Origin: a virus
Direction: 5' to 3' (one strand)
Virus record (IMG/VR): IMGVR_UViG_3300027782_000376
Location: 1 to 23,246 of that record
Length of the DNA: 23,246 bases
A model generated the notes under the pieces. It was not told where the DNA came from, searched no databases, and saw only the letters and a program-made list of their open reading frames with translations. The translations under genes and the position numbers were made by a program. The number at the start of each line of letters is the position of its first letter. Position 1 is the first letter of the stretch. Of the stretch, positions 3,832 through 23,246 are shown piece by piece.

Positions 3832-4549
3832 CGTCGTCCTCCTGTTCAAGCCAGGTTGATTTAAGTTTTACGGGTTGAGGTTTTTCGGGCAACGGAAACG
3901 GCCCACGCCATAGGCCAGAGCGAAAGAACTTGGCAGGCGATGTGATGAACTGCGTCCCAATGCGTCCCATTGCCAATTGTTGGTCAGCGTATTGAGTCAC
4001 AGCGGCCAGAATCGTCTCCGGTGTCTCGCCTTCCTCAAGCAACTGGTTGCAGGCGCGTTCTGCGTCCATCCATGCAACACCGGCATACGTCCCTCTTGGG
4101 TATGCAAGTTTCAGTGCGACAATGTCCACAACCTCGCGCACGCTCTGTGTGTTCAATGATGGTTCAGATTGATGGTTATATGATGGTTGGAGGGCAGCTG
4201 GCGCCCTACCATAGGGCACTTGGCGCCCTACCTCTAGGGCATCTGGCGCCCTACCGTAGGGCACGTCCTGCCCTAGTGCATTTGGCGCACTAGTAGTCGG
4301 ATGCACCAAATAACGGGTTGTGCGGTTCGGATTACCTGGGTCTCTGCTCACACATTGAAACCCTTCCAAGTCAGCCAATGCGTCCGTCACAGCACGTCTG
4401 CTCAAACTGGTTTTGGCGGTAATTGTGGTTAGCGACGGCCAACAAATACCCTCATCACTTGCGTTGTCAGCCAGCGCCAGCAACACCAGTTTCTGTGTCG
4501 GCGTTAGGTTCTGCATTGCCCAAACCGCTGTCATCAATTTGATGCTCAT
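3824..4549 (-). CDS. Winged-helix replication initiator (lambda O-like), origin within gene
   Basis: A 241-residue protein. Residues about 12-85 form a winged helix-turn-helix domain: LTPTQKLVLLALAD, CWPSLTTITAKTSLSRRAVTDALADLE, then a wing ending TTRYLV. This is typical of phage replication initiators that bind origin repeats. A Gly/Ala/Pro-rich linker (about 94-131) follows and is encoded by the repeated DNA. The C-terminal domain (about 135-235) carries an AKFFRSGLW segment common in initiator C-termini, where it may contact the loader. ATG 4549 is chosen; a TTG at 4561 is open but less likely. The C-terminus is acidic (EQEDDDA). The arrangement of DNA-binding domain, iteron-coding linker and partner-binding domain parallels lambda O. 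The family call is fairly firm; the origin claim rests on the repeats. Confidence 0.8.
   Translation of the reverse strand: MSIKLMTAVWAMQNLTPTQKLVLLALADNASDEGICWPSLTTITAKTSLSRRAVTDALADLEGFQCVSRDPGNPNRTTRYLVHPTTSAPNALGQDVPYGRAPDALEVGRQVPYGRAPAALQPSYNHQSEPSLNTQSVREVVDIVALKLAYPRGTYAGVAWMDAERACNQLLEEGETPETILAAVTQYADQQLAMGRIGTQFITSPAKFFRSGLWRGPFPLPEKPQPVKLKSTWLEQEDDDA
4157..4188. repeat. Three TGATGGTT repeats, possible DNA-unwinding element
   Basis: TGATGGTT occurs at 4157-4164, 4170-4177 and 4181-4188, spaced 13 and 11 bases. The stretch is A/T-richer than the flanking gene and lies 10 bases from the iterons, downstream in gene direction. In lambda the A/T-rich unwinding region has the same relative position within gene O. 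Confidence 0.5.
4199..4264. repeat. Three iteron-like repeats inside the initiator gene (candidate origin)
   Basis: Copies start at 4199, 4221 and 4244. Each begins TGGCGCCCTACC and ends TAGGGCA, so each contains the inverted pair GCCCTA/TAGGGC. Copies 1 and 3 differ at one base over 21; copy 2 has one extra base in the spacer. Start-to-start distances of 22 and 23 bases place them on roughly the same DNA face. A degenerate half-copy TGGCGCACTAG begins at 4283. Copy 2 is out of frame with the others. Confidence 0.75.
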
Positions 4550-5930: not shown

Positions 5931-6147
5931 TTCCTTAAAGTTTGCCGTGATCGCTGGCCGGTCATTTGAGATGCGCCGTCAGGCCATGCGTGAGGCTCGC
6001 GCTTGCACCTATGCCGACATCCGCAGCCGTTGCGTTCAGCAGGCACGGTTTTGCAACCGCATGGCTCTGGAGTACCTACAGCTTGCAAGGCAGGCCCAGA
6101 AACACGAACACATCCGAATAACAACAGAGGTGACTTATGAAGCGTAG
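5920..6147 (+). CDS. Small basic helical protein (75 aa)
   Basis: A 75-residue, largely helical, Arg/Ala-rich protein (MRRQAMREARACTYADIRSRC, then FCNRMALEYLQLARQAQKH). Two cysteines are present, but not in a zinc pattern. ATG 5920 has GGAGG about ten bases upstream. It overlaps the preceding gene by 11 bases and the ERF gene start by 11, so it is probably co-translated with the recombinase. No family is recognised. Confidence 0.55.
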   Translation: MRSDSLKFAVIAGRSFEMRRQAMREARACTYADIRSRCVQQARFCNRMALEYLQLARQAQKHEHIRITTEVTYEA

Positions 6148-6781
6148 TGATGCCATCAACGAAATATCATCAGCCTTGGCAAAAGCCCAAGCGGAAATGA
6201 AAAACCCCGGTTTTGACTCAACCAACCCGCATTTTCGCAACAAGTTTGCAAGCCTTGCATCAGTGCGAAATGCTGTGATTCCTGTTCTTGCGAAACACTG
6301 CATTTCTTTGACGCAAGAACTGACCAACACAGAGTCAGGGGTAAATTGCCTGACCATCATTAGCCACGCATCAGGGCAATGGATGGAGTTTGGCCCTTTG
6401 GTTATGCCAGTTGGCAAAAACGATGCTCAAGGATTTGGTTCGGCATCCACCTATTGCAAGCGTTACAGCCTTATGGCTGTTTGCGGTGTTGTCGGCGATG
6501 AGGACGACGACGCAGAAGCCGCTCAAGGGCGCACTGGCATCAACCCTCGCGGTGACATGGGGCTGACCATCACACCGGCGCAGCGTGATCCCATCGTTGC
6601 TGAGTTTCGCGCAGCCCTCGACCTCGATGCTGAAGAACATCAAATCGCATCAGCGGTTTACGCGATCCATGACCGCATTCGCATGAACCCTGACCTTTAC
6701 GTTGCGGTCAGCGATGTGATGACCAGCAAAGAGCGCAGTGCGCTTAAAGCATTTGTGAAAATGGCAAAGGAAACCAAATGA
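6137..6781 (+). CDS. ERF-family single-strand annealing recombinase
   Basis: A 214-residue protein of the ERF family, which anneals complementary single strands and promotes phage recombination or genome circularisation (P22 Erf being the known example). Visible signatures are NPHFRNKFASLASV (30-43) and GFGSASTYCKRYSLMAVCGVVGDEDDD in two parts (99-110 and 111-125), including the conserved Thr-Tyr, Arg-Tyr and acidic cluster. The C-terminal 80 residues are a less conserved helical region. ATG 6137 has GAGGTGA just upstream. The next gene begins with an ATGA overlap, and an SSB-like gene lies two genes on, so this looks like a small recombination module. An ERF-dependent phage commonly uses circular or terminally redundant DNA, consistent with the wrap-around inferred from the window edges. 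Confidence 0.92.
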   Translation: MKRSDAINEISSALAKAQAEMKNPGFDSTNPHFRNKFASLASVRNAVIPVLAKHCISLTQELTNTESGVNCLTIISHASGQWMEFGPLVMPVGKNDAQGFGSASTYCKRYSLMAVCGVVGDEDDDAEAAQGRTGINPRGDMGLTITPAQRDPIVAEFRAALDLDAEEHQIASAVYAIHDRIRMNPDLYVAVSDVMTSKERSALKAFVKMAKETK

Positions 6782-7038: not shown

Positions 7039-7287
7039 ATGGAATACGACAACAGCAACCGTGGAATGTTGATGCGTACGCGAGACAAGCTAAGCGAAAA
7101 ACATCCAGATTATTTTGGCACTTTGAATGTTAACGGCGTGGAGTTTGAATTGTCCGGCTGGAGCAAAGTTAGCGCCAAAGGCAACAAATATATGAGCCTC
7201 ACCATCAAAGAACCGTTCAAGAAAACCACGAAAGTTGCAACGCCTGCGGTTGAGCCTTTTGAAGATGATTTGGAGGTGCCGTTTTGA
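7039..7287 (+). CDS. SSB-like small protein with acidic C-terminal tip
   Basis: An 82-residue protein. The central strand-rich part (FGTLNVNGVEFELSGWSKVS, then KGNKYMSLTIKEPF) resembles DUF736/OB-like small proteins in which a GW segment precedes a KGxKYxSLxIK strand. The C-terminus, FEDDLEVPF, ends in acidic residues followed by Pro-Phe, like the tip of bacterial SSB (DDDIPF) that recruits partner proteins. Together with the ERF gene 258 bases upstream, this suggests a phage single-stranded-DNA-binding protein. The fold and the tip function are inferred. ATG 7039 follows GGGG by about seven bases. Its stop overlaps the next start (7284). Confidence 0.6.
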   Translation: MEYDNSNRGMLMRTRDKLSEKHPDYFGTLNVNGVEFELSGWSKVSAKGNKYMSLTIKEPFKKTTKVATPAVEPFEDDLEVPF

Positions 7288-8450: not shown

Positions 8451-8644
8451 GCCCGACCAAACAACACAGTGTTGAGCTGCTGCAAGAACGCATCAAGTCA
8501 CTGCGCGAGTCAGTAGACAGGGCAGATGCACTAGCCAGCGTACAGGCCAGAACAATACAGGTGCTGGAAGGCTCTCTAGCGATGTATGACGAGCGATTGG
8601 CTGAATTGGCTACGCAGGTAAAGATTATGCGGGAGGCGCTGTGA
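8447..8644 (+). CDS. Small coiled-coil protein (65 aa)
   Basis: A 65-residue protein predicted to be a single long coiled coil (VELLQERIKSLRESVDRADA and LEGSLAMYDERLAELATQVK). ATG 8447 is chosen because AGGGA lies upstream and it overlaps the previous stop by ATGA; the open frame upstream is in the previous gene's shadow. There is no membrane segment, so a spanin role is unlikely. Function unknown. Its end overlaps the YbcO GTG start (GTGA). Confidence 0.6.
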   Translation: MSPTKQHSVELLQERIKSLRESVDRADALASVQARTIQVLEGSLAMYDERLAELATQVKIMREAL

Positions 8645-8928
8645 AAGACCTCAGAAAGCTAGCCAAGGGGCAACCGTGTCAAGTGCGGCTGTTTGGGGTC
8701 TGCAACCATAACGACGAAACAACTGTGCTGGCTCACGTTCGCATTGCCGGAATCAGCGGCATGGGCATGAAGTCGCCAGACCTGATAGCAGCCTGGGCTT
8801 GTTCTAACTGCCATGACGCAGTGGATCGCAGGGGCTATATGAAACTTGACCGCGACGAAGTGCGATTGGCCCACCTAGAAGGCATGGCCCGAACCATCAA
8901 CGAACTCTACAATTTAGAGGTGCTGTAA
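8641..8928 (+). CDS. YbcO-like putative nuclease (DUF1364)
   Basis: A 95-residue protein closely matching the YbcO/DUF1364 family of lambdoid phages: MKDLRKLAKGQPCQVRLFGV, VLAHVRIAGISGMGMKSPDL, ACSNCHDAVDRR and LEGMARTI. Likely metal ligands and catalytic residues are C13, C21, H32, C54, C57 and H58. The family is described as putative HNH-fold nucleases found in recombination/late-regulation (nin-like) regions. The start is GTG 8641, in GTGA overlap with the coiled-coil gene. The role in this phage is probably DNA processing or recombination; the activity is inferred from the family. Confidence 0.88.
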   Translation: MKDLRKLAKGQPCQVRLFGVCNHNDETTVLAHVRIAGISGMGMKSPDLIAAWACSNCHDAVDRRGYMKLDRDEVRLAHLEGMARTINELYNLEVL

Positions 8929-11125: not shown

Positions 11126-14100
11126 TTATGCGTAAGTAACTTCAGAAGTTTGAAGTGTTGCCACCCAGCGGATGTTCGTTGCCGCTGCGCCCGTAGCTGT
11201 AACAGTTAACCCACCATTGGTAGTATCTGCCGACAACGCTAGCGTCCACGCGGGTACGTTGCTTATTGCGGTAACTGTGCTGGCAACCAACGTGGTTGAA
11301 GCCGCAGTGCCTTCGCGTCGAATCAAGCCTTGCACTGTCCACGCTGCGGAGGCAGTACCGCCAGCGGCTTGCTGACGGGCAACCACTGTGCCTGTAAAAG
11401 ACATTGCGGTGCTGTTTGGCAAAATAAGTTGGTTGGTGCTCGCCCCTACCGCGCCATCTGACCCAAGCGTAGAAGCTGTTGCATCTGTAGTGGCGCGACG
11501 AAGTACCAAAAGACCAGCTTGTGAACCGCCTTGAACAAATGCGCCGTCTGATCCAAAAGCAAACTTACCTTTAATTGTTGGAACGTACGCACTGTCGCCG
11601 ATTGCAACTGAATTTGTCGCCGCTGCCGAAGCGCCAGTGCCGGTAGATCCACCGCCAATAGCAACGGAACCATTTCCCGTCGCGGTAGTAGCTAATCCAC
11701 CAATAGCAATTGATTTACTGCCAGTAGCTTTAGAACTCTGGCCTATAGCAATGCTGTTTGCGCCTTGAGCACCATAAGTACTGGTGTTGTTAACACTTGC
11801 GGCTGCGAACGAATCGGTACCGGACGCATACGACCCGCCAATAGCCGTCGCGCCAGCACCTGTAACAGCATTTGAAGCATCAGCAGCTGAGTTTGAGCCT
11901 ATAGCAATTGCAGAGTTGCTAGTAGCTTGTGCATCAACATTACTTGATGTACCTATCGCAATTGAATGAGATCCACTAGCTGTTGCGCCGCCAGACCTTG
12001 CGCCTATAGCAATTGCTGCTGTACCTGTAGCCTTAGCTCCAGCGGCCTGCACGGTGTTTCCACCAATTGCAACGGTACCCTCTGCGGTACTTTGTGAATA
12101 CATTCCGATTGAAACAGACCCACCGCCACTAGCAATTGGCCTTGTTGCTGAAGCAACGCTTACGTTTTCAGCGTAAGAACGCATTGTCTTTTTAGCGCCG
12201 GTCGCCCAGTTTGTACCATCACAAACAATTTCAGTACCTTCACCAGCACGCAAAATAAGCGTCGCCACGCCGTCAATAGTTTCAGCGGCGTTGGGGTCAA
12301 TGGTTATTGCGCCAGTGCCGGTATTCCAAACCCAGCAATTAAAGCCTGAGCCAAGCGTCGCCGCAGCAGTCAACGAAACGCTAAACGTGCCAGTAGTGCA
12401 GTTAATGACGGTCGCCAAATCGCCTGCAATGACGGTGTATGCCGCAGTTTTGTTGCTTAGCGTATAAGTGGATGATCCGCCCGACGCAGCAATAGTGATG
12501 GTTCCCGCGCCGTTGGTAATGGTGACGTTGCTACCGGCGGTCAATGTTGACTTAGCCAGCGTATTGCCAGTGCTGTTGCCAATTAAAATTTGGCCGTCAG
12601 TGTAAGTCGTCTGCCCCGTACCGCCGTTTGCAACCGGCAGCGTACCCGTCACACCCGTGCTAAGAGGCAGTCCAGTGGCGCTGGTAAGGGTTCCGCTTGA
12701 GGGAGTGCCTAATGCACCACCATTAACGACAAATGCGCCAGCAGAGCCGGTATTGACTCCCAGAGCCGTGACGACACCGGTTCCAGTTGTTACGGTTGCA
12801 GGAGCCACGCCAGCGCCGCCGCCAACAACAAGAGAATTCGCGGCAAGGGCAGCAGAAGTTGCCCAGGTTGAAGCGCTGCTAAAATATGGGATGCCGCCGC
12901 TAGTTCCGGCCACGGTCAGCGCCAGTGTGCCACTAGTGGTGATTGGTGAACCTGCAACCGAGATCAGACCGCCGGTAAAAGTCTGGCCGACAGAGGTGAC
13001 CGTGCCACCACCGGCAGTTGATGCGATGGTGATTGTTCCAGCGCCGTTGGTGACCGTAATACCGCTACCCGCCGTGAGGGTAGTTTTTGCCAACGTGTTG
13101 CCGGTAGAGTTGCCGATGAGCAATTGACCGTCAGTGTAGGTTGTCTGACCCGTACCGCCGTTGGCGACAGGCAATGCGGTTCCAGACAACGAGACGGCCA
13201 ACGTGCCGCTGGTCGTGACAGGACTGCCAGCGACAGATAGGAACGTCGGAACCGTCATACCAACCGATGTGACCGTGCCGCCACCAGCAGTGGACGACAA
13301 TGTGCCGGTTGAGAAACTTAACCCACTGCCAACCGTGACGTTAGAAAACCCGCCAGCACCGTTGCCGTACAAAATCGAACTGCCACTGGTCGCAGGCGCA
13401 TAGTCTGTGCCAGAGCTGGCCGCGCTAATTGCCGTGCCATTGCCTTTGAGCAATCCGGTTATAGAGGTGGACAGCGTAAGTGCAGGCGTTGCGCCGCCGC
13501 TAGAGGATCCGGCAAACCCGTTTGCACTGACCACCGATACCGCTGTGACCGTGCCGGAACCCTTGCTGTTAAAAGTCGTCCAGTCAGTGCTTGAAAGGTA
13601 GCCATTGACGCTGCCCGTCGCCACAGGCATTGAAATAACTGGCGCAGTGCCACCCGTAGAGGCTACCGGAGACGTTGCAGTAACCGCTGTGACCGTGCCG
13701 CCGCTACCCGTTGCCGCAATGGTAATCGTGCCGCCACCGTTGGTGATGGTCACGCCACTACCAGCAGTTAACGTGCTTTTGGTCAACGTATTGCCAGTAG
13801 TGTTCCCAATCAGCAGTTGACCGTTGGTGTAGCTACTTTGGCCCGTACCGCCACTAGTGACCGCAAGCGGGTTGGTCAAAATAAGGCTGGTCTTGCTGTT
13901 GCTGTTTAAGACTTGGAATCGAGTCCCGTCGTAAACAATCAGAATCTCTGATCCGGCTACCAAATCGCCAGCCACCAATGCCGTCGATCCATCGCGGGTA
14001 AGTGCTTTTGCGCCCAGGCCGTCGATGTTCAACGTGCAAGAGGTCGTGTTGGTGTTAGGAACGACAAACGTAAATGCGTTTCCAGTGCCGTATGCGGTCA

Positions 14101-14413
14101 ATGCAGGCGACATCGTGCCGGTATAGGTGTCAGTGCCGGTGACCGTGACAACCGTCGCAGCGCCGTTCTGAAGCTGTCCCAAGCGCACCGCATCCGTTGC
14201 GGCAGTACCTGCGGCAAGGTTGGTGACTTTAAACGTGTTCAGCGAGATGTTGGCCGTAATTGCAGTTTGACCATCTTTGGTAATGCAGGTCGATAAACCG
14301 TTGGCAAGGTCTGAGGTAAGCGCGTTAAACGTCGTTGAGGAAATGACCGTGCCAGCAACTACCGGCTGACCAGTCGAATTGATGTTAAAAGTACCGGAGC
14401 CGTTAAAACTCAC
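11126..14413 (-). CDS. Tail fibre with repeated modules and YadA-like head repeats
   Basis: A 1095-residue fibre that should bind the host surface. The N-terminus (MSFNGSGTFNINSTGQPVVA, then STTFNALTSDLANGLSTCITKDG) is typical of phage fibre attachment domains. Residues about 185-640 contain three copies of a module with NGGTGQxxYTxGQLLIGN followed by TLTAGS and TITNGxGTITIA, a beta-helix-like shaft. Residues about 765-950 carry many SIAIG/SVAIGG turns as in trimeric autotransporter (YadA-type) head domains. The C-terminal 140 residues are strand-rich and may hold the receptor tip or trimerisation site. The start is GTG 14413, with GGGAGA six bases upstream; the ATG five bases earlier is out of frame and stops after two codons. 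Receptor unknown. Confidence 0.88.
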   Translation of the reverse strand: MSFNGSGTFNINSTGQPVVAGTVISSTTFNALTSDLANGLSTCITKDGQTAITANISLNTFKVTNLAAGTAATDAVRLGQLQNGAATVVTVTGTDTYTGTMSPALTAYGTGNAFTFVVPNTNTTSCTLNIDGLGAKALTRDGSTALVAGDLVAGSEILIVYDGTRFQVLNSNSKTSLILTNPLAVTSGGTGQSSYTNGQLLIGNTTGNTLTKSTLTAGSGVTITNGGGTITIAATGSGGTVTAVTATSPVASTGGTAPVISMPVATGSVNGYLSSTDWTTFNSKGSGTVTAVSVVSANGFAGSSSGGATPALTLSTSITGLLKGNGTAISAASSGTDYAPATSGSSILYGNGAGGFSNVTVGSGLSFSTGTLSSTAGGGTVTSVGMTVPTFLSVAGSPVTTSGTLAVSLSGTALPVANGGTGQTTYTDGQLLIGNSTGNTLAKTTLTAGSGITVTNGAGTITIASTAGGGTVTSVGQTFTGGLISVAGSPITTSGTLALTVAGTSGGIPYFSSASTWATSAALAANSLVVGGGAGVAPATVTTGTGVVTALGVNTGSAGAFVVNGGALGTPSSGTLTSATGLPLSTGVTGTLPVANGGTGQTTYTDGQILIGNSTGNTLAKSTLTAGSNVTITNGAGTITIAASGGSSTYTLSNKTAAYTVIAGDLATVINCTTGTFSVSLTAAATLGSGFNCWVWNTGTGAITIDPNAAETIDGVATLILRAGEGTEIVCDGTNWATGAKKTMRSYAENVSVASATRPIASGGGSVSIGMYSQSTAEGTVAIGGNTVQAAGAKATGTAAIAIGARSGGATASGSHSIAIGTSSNVDAQATSNSAIAIGSNSAADASNAVTGAGATAIGGSYASGTDSFAAASVNNTSTYGAQGANSIAIGQSSKATGSKSIAIGGLATTATGNGSVAIGGGSTGTGASAAATNSVAIGDSAYVPTIKGKFAFGSDGAFVQGGSQAGLLVLRRATTDATASTLGSDGAVGASTNQLILPNSTAMSFTGTVVARQQAAGGTASAAWTVQGLIRREGTAASTTLVASTVTAISNVPAWTLALSADTTNGGLTVTATGAAATNIRWVATLQTSEVTYA
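12485..13862. repeat. Three diverged direct repeats in the tail fibre gene
   Basis: Blocks of about 150 bases at roughly 12485-12632, 13020-13168 and 13710-13861 encode the same NGGTGQ...TITIA module. They share long near-identical stretches, for example around CCCGTACCGCC at each left end in fibre sense. They could recombine to change fibre length. Confidence 0.7.
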
Positions 14414-14431: not shown

Positions 14432-16213
14432 TTACTGTTGCCCAGCATTGGCAGCGTTCATTGCTGCTAGTGCTGCGGCCAATTGATCGCGGTTCATGCC
14501 GGTAGTTTGCGGCAGTTTGCCACCACGCATCAGAGCTGTTGCCATGCGATTAGGCAAACCGGCAATTTTTCCAGCGCCATATGCCGCCTCGCCCATCAAC
14601 CGTGGCGATGTCATCGCCAGCATCGGCAATGCTTTTGCGCTTAAAATCCCAGCCAAGCCAACGCCCGTAGCAGAATTAATGCCCGACATTGATCGCGGCA
14701 TCATTGAATTAAGCGCCTGCCCCGCCAATGCCGGATACAACGTAGTTGCGCCTTTACCGGCCAGTATTTGGCCCAACTCATCGCGCCGCCCGTAATTGGT
14801 TTGTACATTGTTACGCAACAATGATTGAAGTTTACGCAGCGCCGTATCTGCTTGTGCTTTGTTGCCAAGCGACAACGCGCCTTCCATCTGCGATATCAGT
14901 TCGCTTGCATCCGTGTAGTCGCGCATTACTTTGGAATAAGTAGGCGCTTGGGCCGCAATCTGTTCTTTAACAGCGTTGTAGACTTCTTTTGCAGCATTGT
15001 ATGAAGGCGTTCCAATTTGCTGCGAGTCGCGTATGTCGCCAATGCGCTGTTTGAGCGCATCAAGTCCTTCTGGCGTATGAAAGTCTGCCGGGTTTGAAGT
15101 ATTCCAGTCTTTTACAGCAGCATCAATTTCTTCCCATGTTTTTGAGGCACTTTCGTTTTTGACTTTGCCTTTAAAAATGCCGCGATTTCTTACCTCGTCT
15201 ACTTTGGCAAGAATCGGTTTCATATCCAACACGGTTGCATCTGATTTGATGTCAACCATGCCCGAGTTATACGCCTTTGCCCTGTCAGCTCTGATTTCGT
15301 TTAAGGCGCTTTTTGCCTCATTTACAACGTCAAGCGAGTTTGCGCGGTCAGAGATGTTTGCTCTAAAAGCCTCTGCCGTTTTGCCGCCAGTAAAGCCTGC
15401 ATTTGCAGCCTCTTTGATTGCCTTGCCGCCTGCGCCGGTTGTAAAGCCCAAGATGTTAGCGGCCCCACGCGCAACGGGACGCGTTAGCGTACCTGGACTG
15501 CCTACGCCAATGCCCGTGGCAAGCTCCGCAGCCAACTGCGTGCCTTCGCCGCCGCCACCCTGCCGCACCGCTTCACCAGCCGCAGGCGATGCTGCGCCCA
15601 CGGCAAGCTGCGTGCGCGGGGCAGTGCTTAATATGGACGCCAGCCGCTGTAGCATGGGCGATGCAGCACCAGAAAGCGCCTGACCACCGCCAAGCCCCGT
15701 CGCAGTGCCGGCTACGCCTTGAGTGACGGCAGAAAGCATTTTTTCATCGTCACTAGCAGCCCTCGGCAGTCCTGTTTTATCTAAGCCGGATTGCAGCAAC
15801 TGTTGCGTGCCGCCGATATACGGCAATTGCGGGGCATTGCGGCCAGTCAATTTGTTGTAGCCGGTTGTTGCCGCGTTGTGCAAAGCGGTCAGCGGCGTTG
15901 TTGCCACATCGACTGCAAGCGATGGCAACCCGGCAGCGCCTGTAATTAGATCGCGTGCGCCAAGCCCCATGCCGCGCAAGATTCCTTCTCTGCTGAACGA
16001 ATCTTGCTCAACAGCCGGCGCTTGTGTTGCCGATTGCTGGTGAGTCATTGCCGCAGCGGATTGGCTTTCCGGTGAAATTTTTGCAGCGGCGGGCCTTGCG
16101 CCAAATTGCTGCGCCGCACGCGCATCTGCCTGCTCTTGGGTTACGTTGTCCGGCACATTGTCGTAAGTGTGCAGCGAGCCATCAGGCAATCGCGCTGTGA
16201 TGGATTTTGCCAT
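14432..16213 (-). CDS. Putative internal virion/ejection protein (593 aa)
   Basis: A 593-residue protein. The N-terminus has a short module (ITARLPDGSLHTYDNVPDNV followed by TQEQADARAAQQFG) found at the start of many phage virion proteins. Then comes an Ala/Gly-rich region with several hydrophobic stretches (about 85-270), a helical charged middle, and a hydrophobic C-terminal part (ATGVGLAGILSAKALPMLAM). Such amphipathic large proteins in short-tailed phages are ejected to form the channel for DNA entry. The position between another ejection-type gene and the fibre fits. ATG 16213 is chosen: TAATG overlap with the preceding stop and AGGAG upstream; TTG 16219 is less likely. No lytic transglycosylase motif is seen. 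Confidence 0.65.
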   Translation of the reverse strand: MAKSITARLPDGSLHTYDNVPDNVTQEQADARAAQQFGARPAAAKISPESQSAAAMTHQQSATQAPAVEQDSFSREGILRGMGLGARDLITGAAGLPSLAVDVATTPLTALHNAATTGYNKLTGRNAPQLPYIGGTQQLLQSGLDKTGLPRAASDDEKMLSAVTQGVAGTATGLGGGQALSGAASPMLQRLASILSTAPRTQLAVGAASPAAGEAVRQGGGGEGTQLAAELATGIGVGSPGTLTRPVARGAANILGFTTGAGGKAIKEAANAGFTGGKTAEAFRANISDRANSLDVVNEAKSALNEIRADRAKAYNSGMVDIKSDATVLDMKPILAKVDEVRNRGIFKGKVKNESASKTWEEIDAAVKDWNTSNPADFHTPEGLDALKQRIGDIRDSQQIGTPSYNAAKEVYNAVKEQIAAQAPTYSKVMRDYTDASELISQMEGALSLGNKAQADTALRKLQSLLRNNVQTNYGRRDELGQILAGKGATTLYPALAGQALNSMMPRSMSGINSATGVGLAGILSAKALPMLAMTSPRLMGEAAYGAGKIAGLPNRMATALMRGGKLPQTTGMNRDQLAAALAAMNAANAGQQ

Positions 16214-17577
16214 TACCAATTGCTCCTTGTGCCGCCGCCTCTTCCATACGCCGCATTGCGCTCAGCAATTGAATCATTACGAATGCCAGTTTCACGATCA
16301 TAGATTTCTTGCAAACGTCGCAATCCTGACGTGACAATGTTGCGATCATTCATGTTGTCAAGAATCTGTTTTTGCGCTCTACGTGCGTCTTGATCTGTTT
16401 GCGGCCCTTTAGCAAGGTTTAGAACAGCATTGACTTGCTCGTTTACAGCTCTTTCAAGTTCAAAATATCGCGTTGTTGCGTCAGATGCAGCAGGCAACCC
16501 CATCACGCCGCTAGTAGCTTGATTGGCTCTATAAATTGCAATTTTGGTTGCGCTCAAAGGCAATTTAGGATTGTCGCCTGACAAATCATCAATAAAACCT
16601 TGCAACATATCTTTGTTGCCTTGCAGGCGTTTTGCATCGCCAGCGTCAGAAATGTTGGCAGACAACATACTTGGCGGCATTGCCTTAACCGCGTTGGGAT
16701 CGTTGGGGCCACCGGGCACAAACTCATAATCATTGCCATCTTTTGTATACCTAAAGCCAGGCGGAGGCTTTGGCCTATCAGCAGCTTGGCCTGCTTTTGA
16801 TTGTTGGAAAGCCAATCGTTTTCTATCAATCTCAAGAGTTTGTGCTTGAAACGGTGTAAGAGTTTCAGGCGGCTTTTCTTTAGATGCCAGACGGCTAACA
16901 TCAGGTGTTCTGCCAGCCGCAATGTCTGCTTGAAGCGATTTCAGGCTTTCCGAAGTCAGTTTGTCAGGGTCAAACTTGCCGAGGTAATCCATTGGATTTA
17001 CGGTTTTGTTTGCCGCTTCATACTTGGTCTGAGCCAACGCACGAACCAACGGGTTGTCGCTGAAAATACCTTCTTCTGAACGGCGCATTTGATCTTGGCG
17101 ATTCAATGGCCCACCAACTTGCATCTGCATAGGCTGGTCAAGTGACGCAACAGGGCGAGCGTTTGGCATTGCCGTGACGCTTGGGGCTTGATAGCTAACT
17201 TGACCGTTGTTGCCAACTTGCGGCATCGGCAACTGATTGACCGCAGCCTCACCCATGCCGATTGTTTTCTGCTCTGGGTTGAACGACCGCAAGTAATCCA
17301 GCGCCTCGCTGCGAGCGCCTTTTTCTGTTTCGCTTTTTTGCTTGCTAATATCGGCTAACTGTTTGCCGCCCATGTAGGCTTGCAACATTTTGGCAAGGCC
17401 AAGTACCGGAGAGGTGGGAACAACCATTCCACCAGGTGCAACCTGCGACTCTAGCGGCTGCAATGCCTGCTGTTGCAGCATCTCTGCCATCTGCTGACGA
17501 CGCTTCATTTCCTCAATCTGCTGCTCGTAAGGAGATTGAGTCTTGAACATGCTGACGTTAGTTGTCGAATTAGCCAT
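16213..17577 (-). CDS. Putative virion/ejection-associated protein (454 aa)
   Basis: A 454-residue, Gln/Met-rich helical protein. The start, SPYEQQIEEMKRRQQMAEML, followed by QQQALQPLESQ and a TSPVLGLAKMLQAYMGGKQL segment, is a pattern known from podovirus genes in this position. A long disordered Pro/Gln/Asn-rich middle (about 95-280) leads to a helical C-terminus (YFELERAVNEQVNAVLNLAK). No enzyme motif is visible. ATG 17577 is supported by GGAGGT nine bases upstream, which lies in the last codons of the preceding gene. It probably acts with the flanking large proteins inside the virion; no direct evidence for function. Confidence 0.6.
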   Translation of the reverse strand: MANSTTNVSMFKTQSPYEQQIEEMKRRQQMAEMLQQQALQPLESQVAPGGMVVPTSPVLGLAKMLQAYMGGKQLADISKQKSETEKGARSEALDYLRSFNPEQKTIGMGEAAVNQLPMPQVGNNGQVSYQAPSVTAMPNARPVASLDQPMQMQVGGPLNRQDQMRRSEEGIFSDNPLVRALAQTKYEAANKTVNPMDYLGKFDPDKLTSESLKSLQADIAAGRTPDVSRLASKEKPPETLTPFQAQTLEIDRKRLAFQQSKAGQAADRPKPPPGFRYTKDGNDYEFVPGGPNDPNAVKAMPPSMLSANISDAGDAKRLQGNKDMLQGFIDDLSGDNPKLPLSATKIAIYRANQATSGVMGLPAASDATTRYFELERAVNEQVNAVLNLAKGPQTDQDARRAQKQILDNMNDRNIVTSGLRRLQEIYDRETGIRNDSIAERNAAYGRGGGTRSNW

Positions 17578-17580
17578 GAC

Positions 17581-20520
17581 TTAACCTCCGAATAAACCTT
17601 TACCAATCGCACCACCCATTGGGCCACCAAGCGCCATGCCTGCCATCCCAAACAACCCACTAGTTAACGAATTGGCCCCAGTCTGTGCTGCGTTGTAACG
17701 CTGCATTGCGGCCTGATCCTGCGCCTGTGCGCCTTGCATGATCGGTGCGGCTGCGACGTTTGCGCCCGTATATCCTTGGAACTGCGGCATTTGAACCTGA
17801 CTGCCTGACATTAGCGCCGCAATCTGGTTTAGCGGCTGGTTGTACAACGACAATTGCTGCTGCAATGATTGCTGTGCTGCCGTGTTGCCAAACTGTGCGC
17901 CCTGCAAGGCTTGGTTGAACTGCTGCGCCTGTGCAGAATTCTGGGCCTGTTGCTGCTGAAGTGCCGCATTCTGGTTTTGCGCGACCGCTTGGTTTTGCAA
18001 GCCAGCAACGCCCATCAATTGGCTGTAAATCTGTTGCGCGGCTTGGTTTTGAGCCTGTGCCGCCGTCAACCCCATAGCCATGTTTTGCTGAACGGCTTGG
18101 TTGTAAGCCGAGGTCGCAGCTTGACCTTGCTGGAAGTTTTGTGCAATTGCTTGGTTGGCAAAATTACCTGCACCCATAGCCTGTTGATAGTTCTGCGCTG
18201 CGGCTTGGTTCTGCATTTGTGTTGCAGCCTGACCTTGAGCAAAATTAGCTGCGCTAGCTTGATTCTGGGCTTGCTGGTTTTGCAGGTTGGCGTTAAAACT
18301 TTGCAATTGAGCCTGATTGCCAAACTCGCCAGCCTGTACGCGTTGTTGAAACGCCTGTTGTTCCGTGGCATTTCCCTGCTGCGCCGCTGCCATTGCTTGC
18401 GCGTAGTTTTGCTGCATGGCTTGGTTTTGAGCCTGAGTCGAGGCTTGCGCTTGACCAAAGTTCTGACCAATTGCTTGATTTTGAGCTTGCTGGTTTTGTA
18501 AGTTGGCGCTAAATGATGCCAATTGAGCTTGATTGCCAAACTCACCGGCTTGCACACGCTCTTGGAACCGCTGTTGTTCTGCTGCGTTGCCAGATTGAGC
18601 CGCAGACAACGCTTGAGCGTAATTCTGCTGCATGGCTTGGTTCTGAGCCTGCTGTGCAGATTGAGCTTGACCAAAGTTCTGACCAATCGCTTGATTCTGC
18701 ATCTGCTGCGTTTGCAGATTTGCATTGAACGATGCCAACTGTGCAGCGTTGCCAAACTCTCCGGCCTGTACACGCTGCTGAAATGCTTGCTGTTGAGCCG
18801 CATTACCAGACTGCGCGGAAGCCAATGCTTGAGCATAGTTCTGCTGTGTCGCTTGATTGCCAGCCTGTTGACTCTGAAGGTTTGCATTAAACGACGCAAG
18901 CTGCGCCTGATTGCCAAATTCACCCGCTTGAACGCGCTGCTGAAATCTCTGCTGCTGTGCTGAGTTACCCTGCTGAGCTGAAGCCAACGCCTGCTGATAG
19001 TTCTGCTGCATCGCAACGTTCTGTGCCTGACTTGCTTGCTGACCAGCACCAAATTGAGACAGCGCAGCCTGATTGCCAAAGCCACCCAACGCCTGCTGTT
19101 CGCTCAATCCCTGCTGACGCGCCGACATATCAACATTGATGCCCTGCAATGCGGCTTGAGTCAGCAAGTCGTTTTCCTGCTGCTGTTCTTCTTGAATTGC
19201 AGCGTTATATGCCTGGCCCCCACGCACCAGACCCTGATTTGCCAATTGCGTCTCAAGCTGCGCCCGTTGCCGCTGAAGTTGCGGCTGCAAGCGACTCATA
19301 ATTGCATTTTGTGCGGTCATACCAGCGTTGACTGGCATTGCGGCAAGGCCAGAGGTATCGAGTTTCTGCTGCAATTGAGGGCCAGTTGGCCCACCCTGTG
19401 CTGTGCCGTATTGGCCCATTGTTGGGCCGCCGCTTACGTCGCCACTGGTATCAATGGATTTTTGCAAAGTCGGGCCAGCGACGTTGCCTTGAGCCATTCC
19501 GTACTGGCCCATTGTCGGGCCTGCATTGATTTGACCGCTTGTATCAAGCGTCTTTTGCAAAGTCGGGCCAGCGACATTGCCGCTTGCAAGCCCAAACAAA
19601 CCCGCAGCAGGGCCACCACCAGCCAACCCATATTGACCCATTGAAGGGCCACCGCTAATTTGCGTGCTGGTCTGCAAAGCGTTTTGCAACTGTGGGCCAG
19701 CGACACCACCTTGCGCCGTACCACCCGCAGGGCCACCCTGTGCATAACCGTACTGACCCGCTGAAGGGCCATAGTTAAGAGCGTTGCCCTGAGAAACCTG
19801 CCCCTGCAATTGAGGGCCGCTTACCCCACCTTGTTGATACCCATACTGACCAGCGGAAGGGCCACCTTGCGCGTTAGCGTAGCCGAGGCTGCCTTGCGCC
19901 ATGCCGTACTGATCTGCCGCAGGGCCGGTCTGAGCGTACCCATACTGACCGGACATAGGGCCATAATTGACCCCTTGTGCGCCGACATTCGCGCCTGCCA
20001 TGCCGTAAGCGCCAAGATTTGGCCCTTGTGCAATCTGGCCGGTATTGCCCAGGTTGGTCTGGATGTCCGGCCCTTTAAATTGGAACGTATCGCCAATAAC
20101 ACCTTGAGTTTTTTCCGCAGCTTGTTTGCCTAGATTGGCAAGCGCCAAAGACACATCTTGTTGCGCCTCAAGCGTTTGCTTAGGCTTTTCATACAATGTC
20201 TGCGTGACGGTCGGAGTGTCAGCGTCGCTAGTGAACTGAGCCAGAGTAGGCGCTGCAGACCCGGTATAAGTGACGTTGCCAAACTCATCGTATTGCGGTT
20301 GCTGATTAGCACCACCGGCAGCGTTGTAATTGGCTAATGCCTTGTCATAGCCAGCCTGATCGACCGTGCCGTAAGTTACTCTCTGGGTTCCAAGGGGGCC
20401 AATAATGTTGGGGTTAGACAGCTTTGCGGTAGCCCGAGCTGCCTCAAGATTTGCCGCCCCCTGCTGTAGCGCAATCCCGCTGTAATCAGGTGTCGGAGGT
20501 GCTGCAACGCTTTTGCCCAT
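17581..20520 (-). CDS. Large Gln/Ala/Asn-rich repeat protein, putative ejection/virion protein (979 aa)
   Basis: A 979-residue protein whose N-terminal 150 residues (PTPDYSGIALQQGAANLEAA and following) match the start of virion proteins in many podoviruses. Residues about 165-400 are Gly/Gln-rich with repeats of the GPTMGQYGMAQG and GPTLQKxLDTSG type, 31-43 residues long. Residues about 480-785 have a second repeat containing QQRVQAGEFGNQAQLASFNA and NLQNQQAQNQA, predicted to form a long helical stalk. The C-terminus has Gly-rich hydrophobic runs (LFGMAGMALGGPMGGAIGK) that may insert in membranes. The expected role is an ejected internal virion protein; this is inference from composition and order. 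ATG 20520 has GGGAG upstream, inside the GNAT gene, which it overlaps by 35 bases. Confidence 0.7.
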   Translation of the reverse strand: MGKSVAAPPTPDYSGIALQQGAANLEAARATAKLSNPNIIGPLGTQRVTYGTVDQAGYDKALANYNAAGGANQQPQYDEFGNVTYTGSAAPTLAQFTSDADTPTVTQTLYEKPKQTLEAQQDVSLALANLGKQAAEKTQGVIGDTFQFKGPDIQTNLGNTGQIAQGPNLGAYGMAGANVGAQGVNYGPMSGQYGYAQTGPAADQYGMAQGSLGYANAQGGPSAGQYGYQQGGVSGPQLQGQVSQGNALNYGPSAGQYGYAQGGPAGGTAQGGVAGPQLQNALQTSTQISGGPSMGQYGLAGGGPAAGLFGLASGNVAGPTLQKTLDTSGQINAGPTMGQYGMAQGNVAGPTLQKSIDTSGDVSGGPTMGQYGTAQGGPTGPQLQQKLDTSGLAAMPVNAGMTAQNAIMSRLQPQLQRQRAQLETQLANQGLVRGGQAYNAAIQEEQQQENDLLTQAALQGINVDMSARQQGLSEQQALGGFGNQAALSQFGAGQQASQAQNVAMQQNYQQALASAQQGNSAQQQRFQQRVQAGEFGNQAQLASFNANLQSQQAGNQATQQNYAQALASAQSGNAAQQQAFQQRVQAGEFGNAAQLASFNANLQTQQMQNQAIGQNFGQAQSAQQAQNQAMQQNYAQALSAAQSGNAAEQQRFQERVQAGEFGNQAQLASFSANLQNQQAQNQAIGQNFGQAQASTQAQNQAMQQNYAQAMAAAQQGNATEQQAFQQRVQAGEFGNQAQLQSFNANLQNQQAQNQASAANFAQGQAATQMQNQAAAQNYQQAMGAGNFANQAIAQNFQQGQAATSAYNQAVQQNMAMGLTAAQAQNQAAQQIYSQLMGVAGLQNQAVAQNQNAALQQQQAQNSAQAQQFNQALQGAQFGNTAAQQSLQQQLSLYNQPLNQIAALMSGSQVQMPQFQGYTGANVAAAPIMQGAQAQDQAAMQRYNAAQTGANSLTSGLFGMAGMALGGPMGGAIGKGLFGG
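18170..19080. repeat. Tandem repeats coding the helical QAGEFGNQ units
   Basis: Anchors of the EFGN coding segment occur near 18329, 18538, 18751 and 18916, spaced about 209, 213 and 165 bases, i.e. about 70, 71 and 55 codons. The copies are diverged but clearly homologous, and they generate long open frames on other phases that are not genes. Confidence 0.75.
19340..20030. repeat. Repeats coding the Gly/Gln-rich GQYG units
   Basis: The coding segment for GPxxGQYG recurs near 19411, 19504, 19633, 19753 and 19848, spaced about 93, 129, 120 and 95 bases. Unit length varies in whole codons, as expected for a repeat that grows and shrinks without frameshift. Confidence 0.7.
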
Positions 20521-20926
20521 AACGATCTCCCAAGAATCGGCACTTGTCGCGTGCCATCGTCAGAATAATGATGTCTCCATTGGGTGCGGCCCCTGTAATC
20601 CGCGATTCCTCATTGAAGCCGAGTTTACCAACAACGCGCAACGCTTTCACGTTGTCGCTGTAAATTGGCGCAATAATCTTTCGGACATTTAAGTCCACAA
20701 ACGGATACCGAAATACCAAATGCATGAATAACGGTGTCAATCTGCCCAAAAATGCAATGTGGCAAACAACCGAAGCCTGATTCCAGTTTTCGTAAATCAC
20801 ACCCGCAATCAGTTTGCCGTCCAACTCCAGCCCAATAGCCTGCGACTTTTCTGCGAAATATGAGCCACCGGATTGCGAAGCAACCCAATGACCCACATCA
20901 TCGCCAGCGACTATATTCCGGCCCAT
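20486..20926 (-). CDS. GNAT-family acetyltransferase
   Basis: A 146-residue acetyl-CoA-dependent N-acetyltransferase. The fold is visible as strands AIGLELDGKLIAGVIYENW (30-48) and VVCHIAFLGRL, the YPFVDLNVRKIIAPIYSDN segment (74-92), the acyl-CoA helix ALRVVGKLGF (95-104), and a C-terminal DIIILTMARDKCRFL (118-132). Phages often carry this GNAT type within the tail/ejection gene cluster; its substrate is unknown and could be a virion protein or host target. It starts inside the tail nozzle gene (16-base overlap) with no clear ribosome-binding site, and overlaps the next gene by 35 bases. These overlaps suggest tightly coupled expression with the tail proteins. Confidence 0.8.
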   Translation of the reverse strand: MGRNIVAGDDVGHWVASQSGGSYFAEKSQAIGLELDGKLIAGVIYENWNQASVVCHIAFLGRLTPLFMHLVFRYPFVDLNVRKIIAPIYSDNVKALRVVGKLGFNEESRITGAAPNGDIIILTMARDKCRFLGDRYGQKRCSTSDT

Positions 20927-22478: not shown

Positions 22479-23246
22479 TTAATTCCCATACCCGGAGTCA
22501 GGAATGTTGTCGTAGCCGATCAGCACCGTGCCCGGTCGCGGAGCAAACGACAAATTAGCCGCGCTGGTGTCCTGCGCGATTGCCGTGTTGAGTTCTTCCA
22601 TGTAATTGCGATACAACGCAGTGGTGTCAAAGCCCTTGGCCTCAAAGTATTTGAGTTTGGTGCTGAGAACCATTACACGGTCTGGAAAAATGCAGGTATC
22701 CGTGTCAGCGGTAAAACTGTTCTGCACATCTCCGGCTGACGATTCTGCCCAGCCCTTGCTGCGATACTCGTAAGACAGCAACTCGTTGGTTGAGGTGCCA
22801 GGCCAAATCTGGAACGTCTTGCCAAGCAACCGCCAGCGAATGCGAGGGCCGGTTGAGATATAGCCTGATAGCAACCATTCCCACTGCTGTGCGCTTTCTG
22901 GGCCTAACAACTCCCAACGCTTGCTCTTGTCCCACATCGTGCGCGGCACAATCGCATCGTAATCGGTGGGCAAGTCGTATTTGACCTGCTGGAAATAGAC
23001 CGTCGCGTTAGTGCCACCGGCTTGCGTAAAGTCTTGGTTAACGGTCACCTGATTGGGGCCGTCAACGCTTGTGATATATGTCGCGTTACCAATACCGACA
23101 CCCTGCACCTGATAGGACGTATCAAGTCCCGTGGTTGAAGGGATGCCGGTAATGGTACGCGCCGCAGTCGTCCAGTTCCCTGTCGTCGTAACGTATTGGG
23201 TGTAGAACTGATAGACCTTGGTCAGCTCACGCCAGTCAGCACGACG
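22479..23246 (-). CDS. Head-tail adaptor/tail-tubular-A-like protein, C-terminal part (cut by window edge)
   Basis: The frame is open through the right edge, so the gene starts outside the window. The visible 255 residues begin RRADWRELTKVYQFYTQYVT and include DLPTDYDAIVPRTMWDKSKR, WRLLGKTFQIWPG and FPDRVMVLSTKLKYFEAKGF. This is the common podovirus protein found just before the nozzle gene, thought to be the adaptor between portal and nozzle. Internal GTG codons such as 23108 are not the true start. Its stop is followed after two bases by the nozzle ATG. The family recognition is good; the structural role is inferred from order and length. Confidence 0.75.
   Translation of the reverse strand, partial: RRADWRELTKVYQFYTQYVTTTGNWTTAARTITGIPSTTGLDTSYQVQGVGIGNATYITSVDGPNQVTVNQDFTQAGGTNATVYFQQVKYDLPTDYDAIVPRTMWDKSKRWELLGPESAQQWEWLLSGYISTGPRIRWRLLGKTFQIWPGTSTNELLSYEYRSKGWAESSAGDVQNSFTADTDTCIFPDRVMVLSTKLKYFEAKGFDTTALYRNYMEELNTAIAQDTSAANLSFAPRPGTVLIGYDNIPDSGYGN

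Follow-up and report, generated by a model that had tools for sequence, protein, structure and literature searches.

How can a phage virion protein that carries two large repeat arrays change its length? This question is raised by a gene for a 979-amino-acid (aa) protein in a 23,246-base virus record (IMG/VR record IMGVR_UViG_3300027782_000376; the whole of this stretch is referred to here as the window). The open reading frame (ORF) runs on the minus strand from an ATG at position 20520 to its end at 17581, and in its product, a Gly-rich array is followed by a conserved core and then by a Gln/Ala/Asn array. The initial annotation of this DNA described a 979-residue protein with two repeat sets between a conserved N-terminus and a Gly-rich C-terminus, a layout that is confirmed by the ORF, by Tandem Repeats Finder and by a ladder of 18-residue units. 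It further described the two repeat families as unrelated, which is true of their sequences; the arrays are, however, locked to each other in length and follow each other in mirrored order.

The protein matches phrog_6121, "virion structural protein" (E=4.2e-12, profile search), and has no Pfam match at E 0.1. The Gly array is assembled from two kinds of module, a short one, S, of about 12 aa (GPxxGQYGxAQG) and a long one, L, of about 19 aa (GPxLQxxLDTSG); on this side, Tandem Repeats Finder reports a 93-bp array (31 aa; 19406-19581, 1.9 copies, score 226). On the helical side, it reports a 216-bp array (18257-18846, 2.7 copies, score 574), that is, 72 aa or 4 x 18 residues. The 18-residue ladder is unbroken from aa 466 to 897 and consists of single units, with N at position 6, and paired X-Y units; 18 residues make up five turns of a straight alpha-helix. 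In the AlphaFold model, the N-terminal block (aa 1-142) comprises a helix, short strands and another helix, and the core is predicted to form a helix-turn-helix with an NQGLxxGGxAYN turn (block pLDDT 81-87 across aa 411-450).

Of 147 candidate stretches in a scan of viral contigs, 139 proved to be relatives, and the 80 best of these relatives were kept; a scan of genome contigs added one (L095) among 111 stretches. The main family, as defined here, includes 68 distinct proteins, that of the window among them; 67 are measurable, L008, which is open at its 3' end, being left out of every span count. The closest relatives of the window protein are L002 (100% identical) and L003 (93%), and the array spans of L003 equal those of the window protein. 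Measured from NQGL of the core to the motif N[EQ][IV]xA[LI], the helical span equals 2 mod 18 in 67 of the 67 measurable proteins (the first end anchor measured 41 proteins and was later widened to 67; the early Gly anchor likewise measured 41). The spans take 17 distinct values from 218 to 794 aa, or 12 to 44 units, with 26 units in the window protein; repeat number is thus not constant among relatives, in agreement with the expectation of the initial annotation. Over 1336 units, the commonest residues read, loosely, [QA]A..Q.[FY].Q.[LMV]....[AF].N.

The length of the Gly array follows that of the helical array almost exactly. The Gly span, taken from an N-terminal anchor to the core and plotted against the helical span, gives a slope of 0.590 with r=0.9998 and residuals of at most 4 aa, for 24 distinct pairs representing 60 of the 67 proteins; L029, L046, L049, L051, L053, L063 and L071, in which the N-terminal anchor is missing, were left out both of this fit and of the comparison of close pairs described below. 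When a single anchor is used throughout, the main family, which alone entered the fit, gives the line G=0.5897H+43.15, where G and H are the Gly and helical spans. Among 27 divergent homologs (20 distinct pairs, spans 49-650), 18 fall within 4 residues of this line, and the fit to these homologs themselves has r 0.996 and a slope of 0.538. Six homologs with a span of 49 have a Gly span of 73, compared with 72.0 from the line (an earlier anchor gave 81 compared with 78.0), and the observed and expected values are 115 and 116.3 for L094 and 166 and 169.9 for L095. The divergent loci outside this fit are L102, L103, L111 and L113 (of 24 loci, not re-extracted), L105, L121, L123, L089 and L090; L093 is truncated, and L096 is without the N-terminal anchor. 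Outside the spans that enter the length law, many relatives, L047 and L051 among them, have additional variable sequence in the N-terminal block; the distance from SNPN to the N-terminal anchor ranges from 58 to 217 aa among the 41 proteins measured.

Another line of evidence comes from close relatives, that is, pairs that share at least 25% of their 16-mers and have both spans measured (n=238; the pairs share members and are not independent). In 129 of these pairs, the helical spans are equal, and the Gly spans differ by 0 (128 pairs) or 1 (one pair). The remaining 109 pairs differ in helical span, and all of them show a matched Gly change: 54 aa on the helical side goes with 30-33 on the Gly side, 108 with 62-63, 144 with 83, 162 with 95, 180 with 104, and 198 with 113-114. 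The view of the two repeat sets as independent elements, implicit in the initial annotation, is accordingly not supported: across the 238 pairs, they differ only together. Exactly one gap per array is found in 62 of 125 close pairs of unequal length, representing 9 event classes, and the gap positions mirror each other about the core (r=0.994; mean difference 0.58 unit compared with a permutation mean of 3.87, 0 of 20000). The other 63 pairs do not have exactly one gap per array; of two such pairs that were read, L005/L044 shows two matched gap pairs within one gene and L059/L080 several small gaps with no clean matched pair.

Arguably, such coupling might be non-functional, with the two arrays inherited or exchanged together and their mirrored order left over from common ancestry. 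Recombination that replaces the gene does indeed seem to occur. L040 and L061 differ by 9 helical units, and recombination appears to be involved in this difference because their nozzle DNA is identical over 1530 bases, yet three main blocks of the gene for the array protein are only 87-91% identical. Nevertheless, we consider this explanation highly improbable: the coupling recurs at different sites (the 9 event classes, and two matched pairs in L005/L044), the length law also extends to divergent homologs with different module sequences, and the core separates the arrays, so that no single duplication alters both. Fresh slippage duplication that produces identical copies is unlikely in the relatives as well: 12 extra segments, from 5 genes, share only 45-67% identity with the most similar other copy within their gene, and the length changes would be better explained if whole modules were lost or exchanged. 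The suggestion that the length of the protein may change quickly is therefore borne out insofar as close relatives such as L040 and L061 differ in length, but in the relatives, the change comes in whole coupled modules, and slippage is unsupported.

Examination of the module order reveals the same relationship at a finer scale. Outward from the core, the Gly array of the window protein reads L S L S L S S L S S L S, and the helical pairs and singles come, by eye, in the same order; a doubled S follows the fourth long module in L016, the third in L018 and the second in L041, and the helical array matches each of these, again by eye. For a quantitative comparison, short modules were identified by a fixed pattern and mapped onto the helical array at 10.55 residues per unit, in 26 distinct patterns from 67 proteins; the pattern and the mapping constants were set after viewing the window and a few relatives, and short modules beyond a gap of >70 residues or mapping past the last units were not included. 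Of 150 short Gly modules mapped in this way, 148 (0.987) fall opposite a single unit of the helical array, compared with a base rate of 254/642. Shifting the mapping by -2, -1, +1 or +2 units leaves 29/150, 27/150, 37/150 and 31/146 matches, respectively; shifts of -3 and +3 give 95/129 and 100/146, as expected from the three-unit rhythm, and shifts of -4 and +4 give 38/129 and 68/138. Shuffling of the gaps yields a mean of 104.5 matches and a maximum of 119, with 148 reached in none of 5000 shuffles; reversal of the module order leaves 105/150; and when helical partners are swapped between proteins, the matching fraction has a mean of 0.72 and a maximum of 0.84, compared with the observed 0.987.

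The facing modules are also associated by type. N-type long modules are faced by 16 of 18 R-type X-Y pairs and D-type ones by 46 of 54 E-type pairs, with 24 of 96 unclassified, where N and D denote the residue at one position of the long module (Fisher p 2e-8, uncorrected for relatedness; the class rules were drafted after examples had been seen, and long modules with no X-Y pair at a distance of 0.8 unit or less were excluded without being counted). For single X-Y columns, the mutual information rises to 0.59 of 0.88 bits, whereas 500 shuffles did not exceed 0.24. These associations may be read as a type-matching code between modules that face each other. Conceivably, each array could instead separately measure a third component, for example, a dimension of the tail or the head, in which case the two would covary without contact and a linear length law would follow too. 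However, this scheme, to which we attach hardly any credence, does not predict the mirrored module order (148/150), the mirrored indel sites or the association of module types, and the lengths of the neighbors show no trend by inspection (518-525 aa for the nozzle, where listed, and mostly 389-555 aa for the next gene; no statistic was computed).

Four features are evident in the sequences: the quantum of 18 residues, the length law, a mirror-image module order and indels that are coupled between the arrays. This coupling of the arrays, as read from the sequences by themselves, is the real finding at this locus. The explanation that accounts best for the protein, and that we consider likely, is an antiparallel hairpin rod with an extended Gly strand packed against a helix. 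The chain would run out as an extended Gly-rich strand, turn at the conserved core (aa 395-488), the proposed turning point of the hairpin, and return as a long, nearly straight alpha-helix. A short Gly module would lie beside one helical unit and a long one beside a two-unit X-Y pair; given such one-to-one pairing of modules, the arrays would need equal physical length and mirror-image module order, and unmatched changes in either array would be removed by selection. The strand and the helix could belong to one chain or to neighboring chains of an oligomer. With 0.59 strand residues per helical residue and a helical rise of 1.5 A, the strand would rise by about 2.5 A per residue. Calculated by hand, the path from the turn to the first short module comes to about 114 A on the strand side (34 x 1.5 + 25 x 2.54) and 111 A on the helix side (74 x 1.5). 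Provided that the helix is straight and unbroken, this geometry predicts a rod length of about 70 nm for the window protein, 33-119 nm for the main family and about 7 nm for the short homologs described below. Of the components of this model, side-by-side antiparallel packing is the one that we regard as very probable.

In the hairpin rod, two complementary arrays of one chain would zip together antiparallel under a type-matching code, and the rod would extend from about 7 to about 120 nm only through coupled mirrored indels; such a self-measuring rod is, rather plausibly, a new principle of protein architecture. No paired-array architecture was found in the titles and abstract openings of the literature searched, which does not imply that there is none in print. 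Phage tape measure proteins, YscP and nebulin-type modular rulers count length in repeats and measure another structure, whereas in the present protein, the two arrays seem to serve as rulers for each other within a single chain. Both structure predictions handle the family poorly, and the coupling strongly constrains its fold from sequence information only and makes the architecture testable. The family also offers a natural length series that bears on how reach matters for short-tailed phages at envelope crossing, and it might serve as a blueprint for length-programmable protein rods.

Several observations weigh against the hairpin rod. Both AlphaFold models, for the window protein and for L094 (input alignments of 28 of the 68 main-family proteins, A1, and of 20 divergent proteins, A4), are monomers of low confidence (mean pLDDT 48.6 and 62.3), and the Gly array is mostly coil. 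The helical character of the second array, proposed in the initial annotation, is recovered with breaks and at low confidence, most of this array being helix in the window model and likewise in that of L094. In the window model, the helix breaks at about aa 489-537 and 782-806, with short breaks near 586-591, 658-663 and 730-735; the model, then, does not show a single continuous helix, and AlphaFold supports the helix only. Furthermore, 9 of the 27 divergent homologs are off the length line by >4 residues (L120 by -31.5, Mx8 by -12.7, L115 by -10.6, L119 by +8.6, L107 by +8.5, L116 by +7.6, L114 by -6.0, ctMlz233 by +5.6 and L117 by -4.8), and L123, outside the 27-homolog fit, is off by +43, with a long low-complexity insertion. 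In the divergent homologs, the anchors were placed by eye after the line had been fitted; a common 18-residue phase is limited to the main family; and the relatives are akin to one another, so that the counts represent non-independent events.

Structure searches were of limited help. Searched by sequence, the window protein produced nothing in PDB at E 0.1, and the L094 model, searched by fold, produced nothing in PDB below E 0.001; among predicted viral structures, the same model matched mostly uncharacterized phage proteins, many of them named for the chaperone domain. A profile of the short family retrieved S74-domain proteins from PDB, including human MYRF, along with two weak, seemingly unrelated matches.

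Two kinds of C-terminal end occur across the family, a Gly-rich hydrophobic tail and an S74-type domain, and the C-terminus seems to be exchanged as a unit. Even between L003 (4869-7775) and the window (17581-20520), the last C-terminal stretch differs. A Peptidase_S74-type end, recognized by the VMADE and SDRRLK motifs, is present in 26 of the 68 main-family proteins, with SDRRLK kept in all 26; Pfam S74 matches were obtained for 3 of 3 long forms tested, one of them above the cut-off. In the window protein, there is no Pfam match to the S74 domain, and the motif is absent. L005, which is without the S74 domain, stops just short of the place where L022 reaches the SD motif. In known S74 proteins, the S74 domain is cut off at that motif; if it is cleaved there in this family as well, the mature C-terminus would have its counterpart in the Gly-rich hydrophobic end of the window protein. 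Because S74 proteins of solved structure are trimers, we favor, with some reserve, a trimeric state for the rod.

Annotated podoviruses carry, in the same slot, a short homolog of 303-342 aa annotated as a virion structural protein: phiGT1_17, Mx8p54, RHEph18, EPV2 gp27, pCB2047-C (SUBG_00009) and ctMlz233. These phrog_6121 proteins have a homologous N-terminus, the core G[IL]xxGSxA[YW] and the C-terminal block N[EQ]IxAL, with variants, and follow the GNAT gene, as the window gene does; they differ in their small size and a helical span of 49-70, compared with the two large arrays that flank the core in the window protein. An S74-type end is found in 5 of the 6, by Pfam above the cut-off in phiGT1 and Mx8 and below it in EPV2, by annotation in RHEph18 ("peptidase_S74 domain-containing structural protein") and by eye in pCB2047-C. 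Matches to phrog_6121 have E-values of 4.3e-47 for L022, 3.7e-24 for L027 and 5e-121 for phiGT1_17. The window protein can thus be read as the short form with one array added on each side of the core. A divergent member (584 aa) with an S74-type end, L095 (7935-9686), is located on a contig of a gammaproteobacterial metagenome-assembled genome, and L099 is its IMG/VR copy. No matches in the phage collection were produced by tblastn with the 979-aa protein or with its N-terminus; the longer relatives L107, L115 and L022 retrieved short homologs or S74-only matches, and no isolate with long arrays was seen. A candidate fusion, "internal virion protein D" of MW202675, in which an S74-like part precedes, by eye, a transglycosylase-like stretch, was not counted because its N-terminus is not clearly homologous.

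As for the role of the protein, it is probably a needle-like or ejected penetration rod in the virion. The protein would belong to the penetration apparatus of a short tail, and its reach would be tuned by gain or loss of matched modules. The penetration or ejection apparatus is favored by the gene slot and the annotation of phiGT1, whereas the S74 domain and the great length favor a projecting rod; on balance, a rod for penetration seems somewhat more plausible to us than a receptor fiber. The profile comparisons give no help to this assignment and count against it: in hhalign, the probability is 0.1 with P22 gp26 (A2 profile), 0.1 with T7 gp14 and 0.2 with P22 gp7, none of which is a match. 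Because there is no profile match to gp26, gp7 or T7 gp14, we file the window protein as a long variant of phrog_6121 rather than as a needle or an ejection protein.

An external needle or tail fiber, that is, a trimeric rod that projects from the tail, is a serious contender, with a chance that we put a little short of even. It agrees with the S74-type domain in the 26 main-family proteins and in the short homologs, and with the PDB matches of the short-family profile, which are mainly S74 proteins, including two phage tail fibers and a neck appendage, over that domain. P22 gp26 needles are the best analogue in behavior: these are long trimeric helical rods that vary in length by whole repeats (220-320 A, 11-16 heptads), carry an exchangeable C-terminal domain and have the N-terminus folded back on the shaft (PMC3741392). 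However, there is no profile relation to gp26, the units are 18 residues long instead of heptads, a full-length matched strand takes the place of a 27-residue fold-back, and the gene follows the GNAT gene instead of occupying the P22 needle slot. In addition, the far end of the hairpin model is among the most conserved parts of the protein, unlike a receptor-binding tip.

The alternative already raised in the initial annotation, an ejected trans-envelope conduit, would have the helical arrays of several copies form a Gln/Asn-lined barrel through the periplasm, coated by the Gly strands, in the manner of the phiX174 H tube; we regard it as doubtful, even if several observations point that way. 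The downstream neighbors are annotated as putative internal virion or injection proteins in phiGT1; in H6/1 and RHph_Y1_10, this slot is occupied by a protein named as an ejection or S74 structural protein, with ejection or injection genes after it, although its similarity to the family was observed only over the S74 part; and 3 of the 5 short homologs scanned match phrog_4287, "DNA ejection protein", with the match limited to the S74 part in two of the three. The same short homologs, however, also match tail fiber families, mainly over that part. The Gln/Asn-rich long helices and the DNA-delivery setting are shared with the H tube, whose lumen is of this kind; the available part of the source describes a decameric 170-A tube and makes no mention of a paired array (PMC7354561). 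Similarly, T7 gp14/gp15/gp16 and P22 gp7/gp20/gp16 share the operon neighborhood after the adaptor, nozzle and GNAT-slot genes but show no profile similarity in the two cases compared, T7 gp14 and P22 gp7. Length is the main difficulty: envelope crossing should call for a fairly fixed length, whereas the expected helical length spans about 7 to 119 nm, and the longest rods would probably exceed the head of a 35-45 kb phage in length. This argues against a fixed-length conduit.

The gene is embedded in an operon of virion genes, the coordinates of which are collected in the table along with those of the parts of the protein.

Table. Features of the 979-aa protein gene and its neighbors in the window
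Feature	Coordinates	Strand	Evidence
Coding sequence, 979 aa; phrog_6121-type podoviral virion protein with two length-locked repeat arrays	17581..20520	-	ORF and translation, phrog_6121 match, close relatives
Conserved N-terminal block, aa 1-142	20095..20520	-	invariant columns (alignment of 28 of the 68 proteins) and AlphaFold elements
Gly-rich (Gly/Gln) array, about aa 166-394	19339..20025	-	Tandem Repeats Finder, translation, module reading; length follows helical array
Conserved core, aa 395-488	19057..19338	-	invariant columns, AlphaFold block pLDDT, kept in short homologs
Gln/Ala/Asn array of 18-residue units, aa 466-897	17830..19125	-	unit ladder, spans of 2 mod 18, mostly helix in model
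C-terminal block with Gly-rich hydrophobic end, aa 898-979	17584..17829	-	translation and family comparison
GNAT acyltransferase-like gene, P22 gp14 / T7 internal virion protein A slot	20486..20926	-	phrog_4470 E=3e-34; slot naming from PMC10386132
Nozzle / P22 gp10-like tail protein, 521 aa	20911..22476	-	phrog_5107 E=3e-122; annotated homologs
Head-tail adaptor, open at window end	22479..23246	-	phrog_6013 E=1e-34; SU10_adaptor just below Pfam cut-off (209-aa ORF tested)
Downstream gene, 454 aa, putative ejection-protein slot	16213..17577	-	position only
Downstream gene, 595 aa, putative ejection-protein slot	14432..16219	-	position only

The adaptor, nozzle and GNAT genes lie upstream of the 979-aa gene, the start of which is overlapped by the GNAT gene; downstream come the 454-aa and 595-aa genes, for which phrog and Pfam profile searches produced no family match, and then a tail fiber gene. 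The slot defined by the order adaptor, nozzle, GNAT and this gene is common to the window and the annotated phrog_6121 phages. In the phiGT1 paper, IVPA is the name of the GNAT gene, and IVPB and IVPD are mentioned as further internal virion proteins (PMC10386132); IVPB of phiGT1 would be the gene in the slot of the 979-aa protein.

The tail fiber (11126-14413, minus strand, 1095 aa) contains repeated GGTGQTTYTDGQLLIGNSTGNTL-type segments (phrog_31660, 3 stretches) and a YadA-head repeat and is the second strongly repetitive protein of the same operon. On the strand opposite to the virion genes, genes are found for an Erf-type single-stranded DNA annealing protein (6137-6781), a small SSB-like protein (7039-7287) and a YbcO-like nuclease (8641-8928), all on the plus strand. 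A 404-aa protein encoded on the minus strand (575-1789) combines a ParB-like N-terminal part with an N6/N4 DNA methyltransferase part (phrog_498, E=1.5e-174; PF01555, E=1e-24; ParB_N just below the cut-off). Finally, a 22-bp tandem repeat, AGGGCACCTGGCGCCCTACCAT, is present in 3.3 copies at 4191-4264 and contains, by eye, a short inverted repeat.

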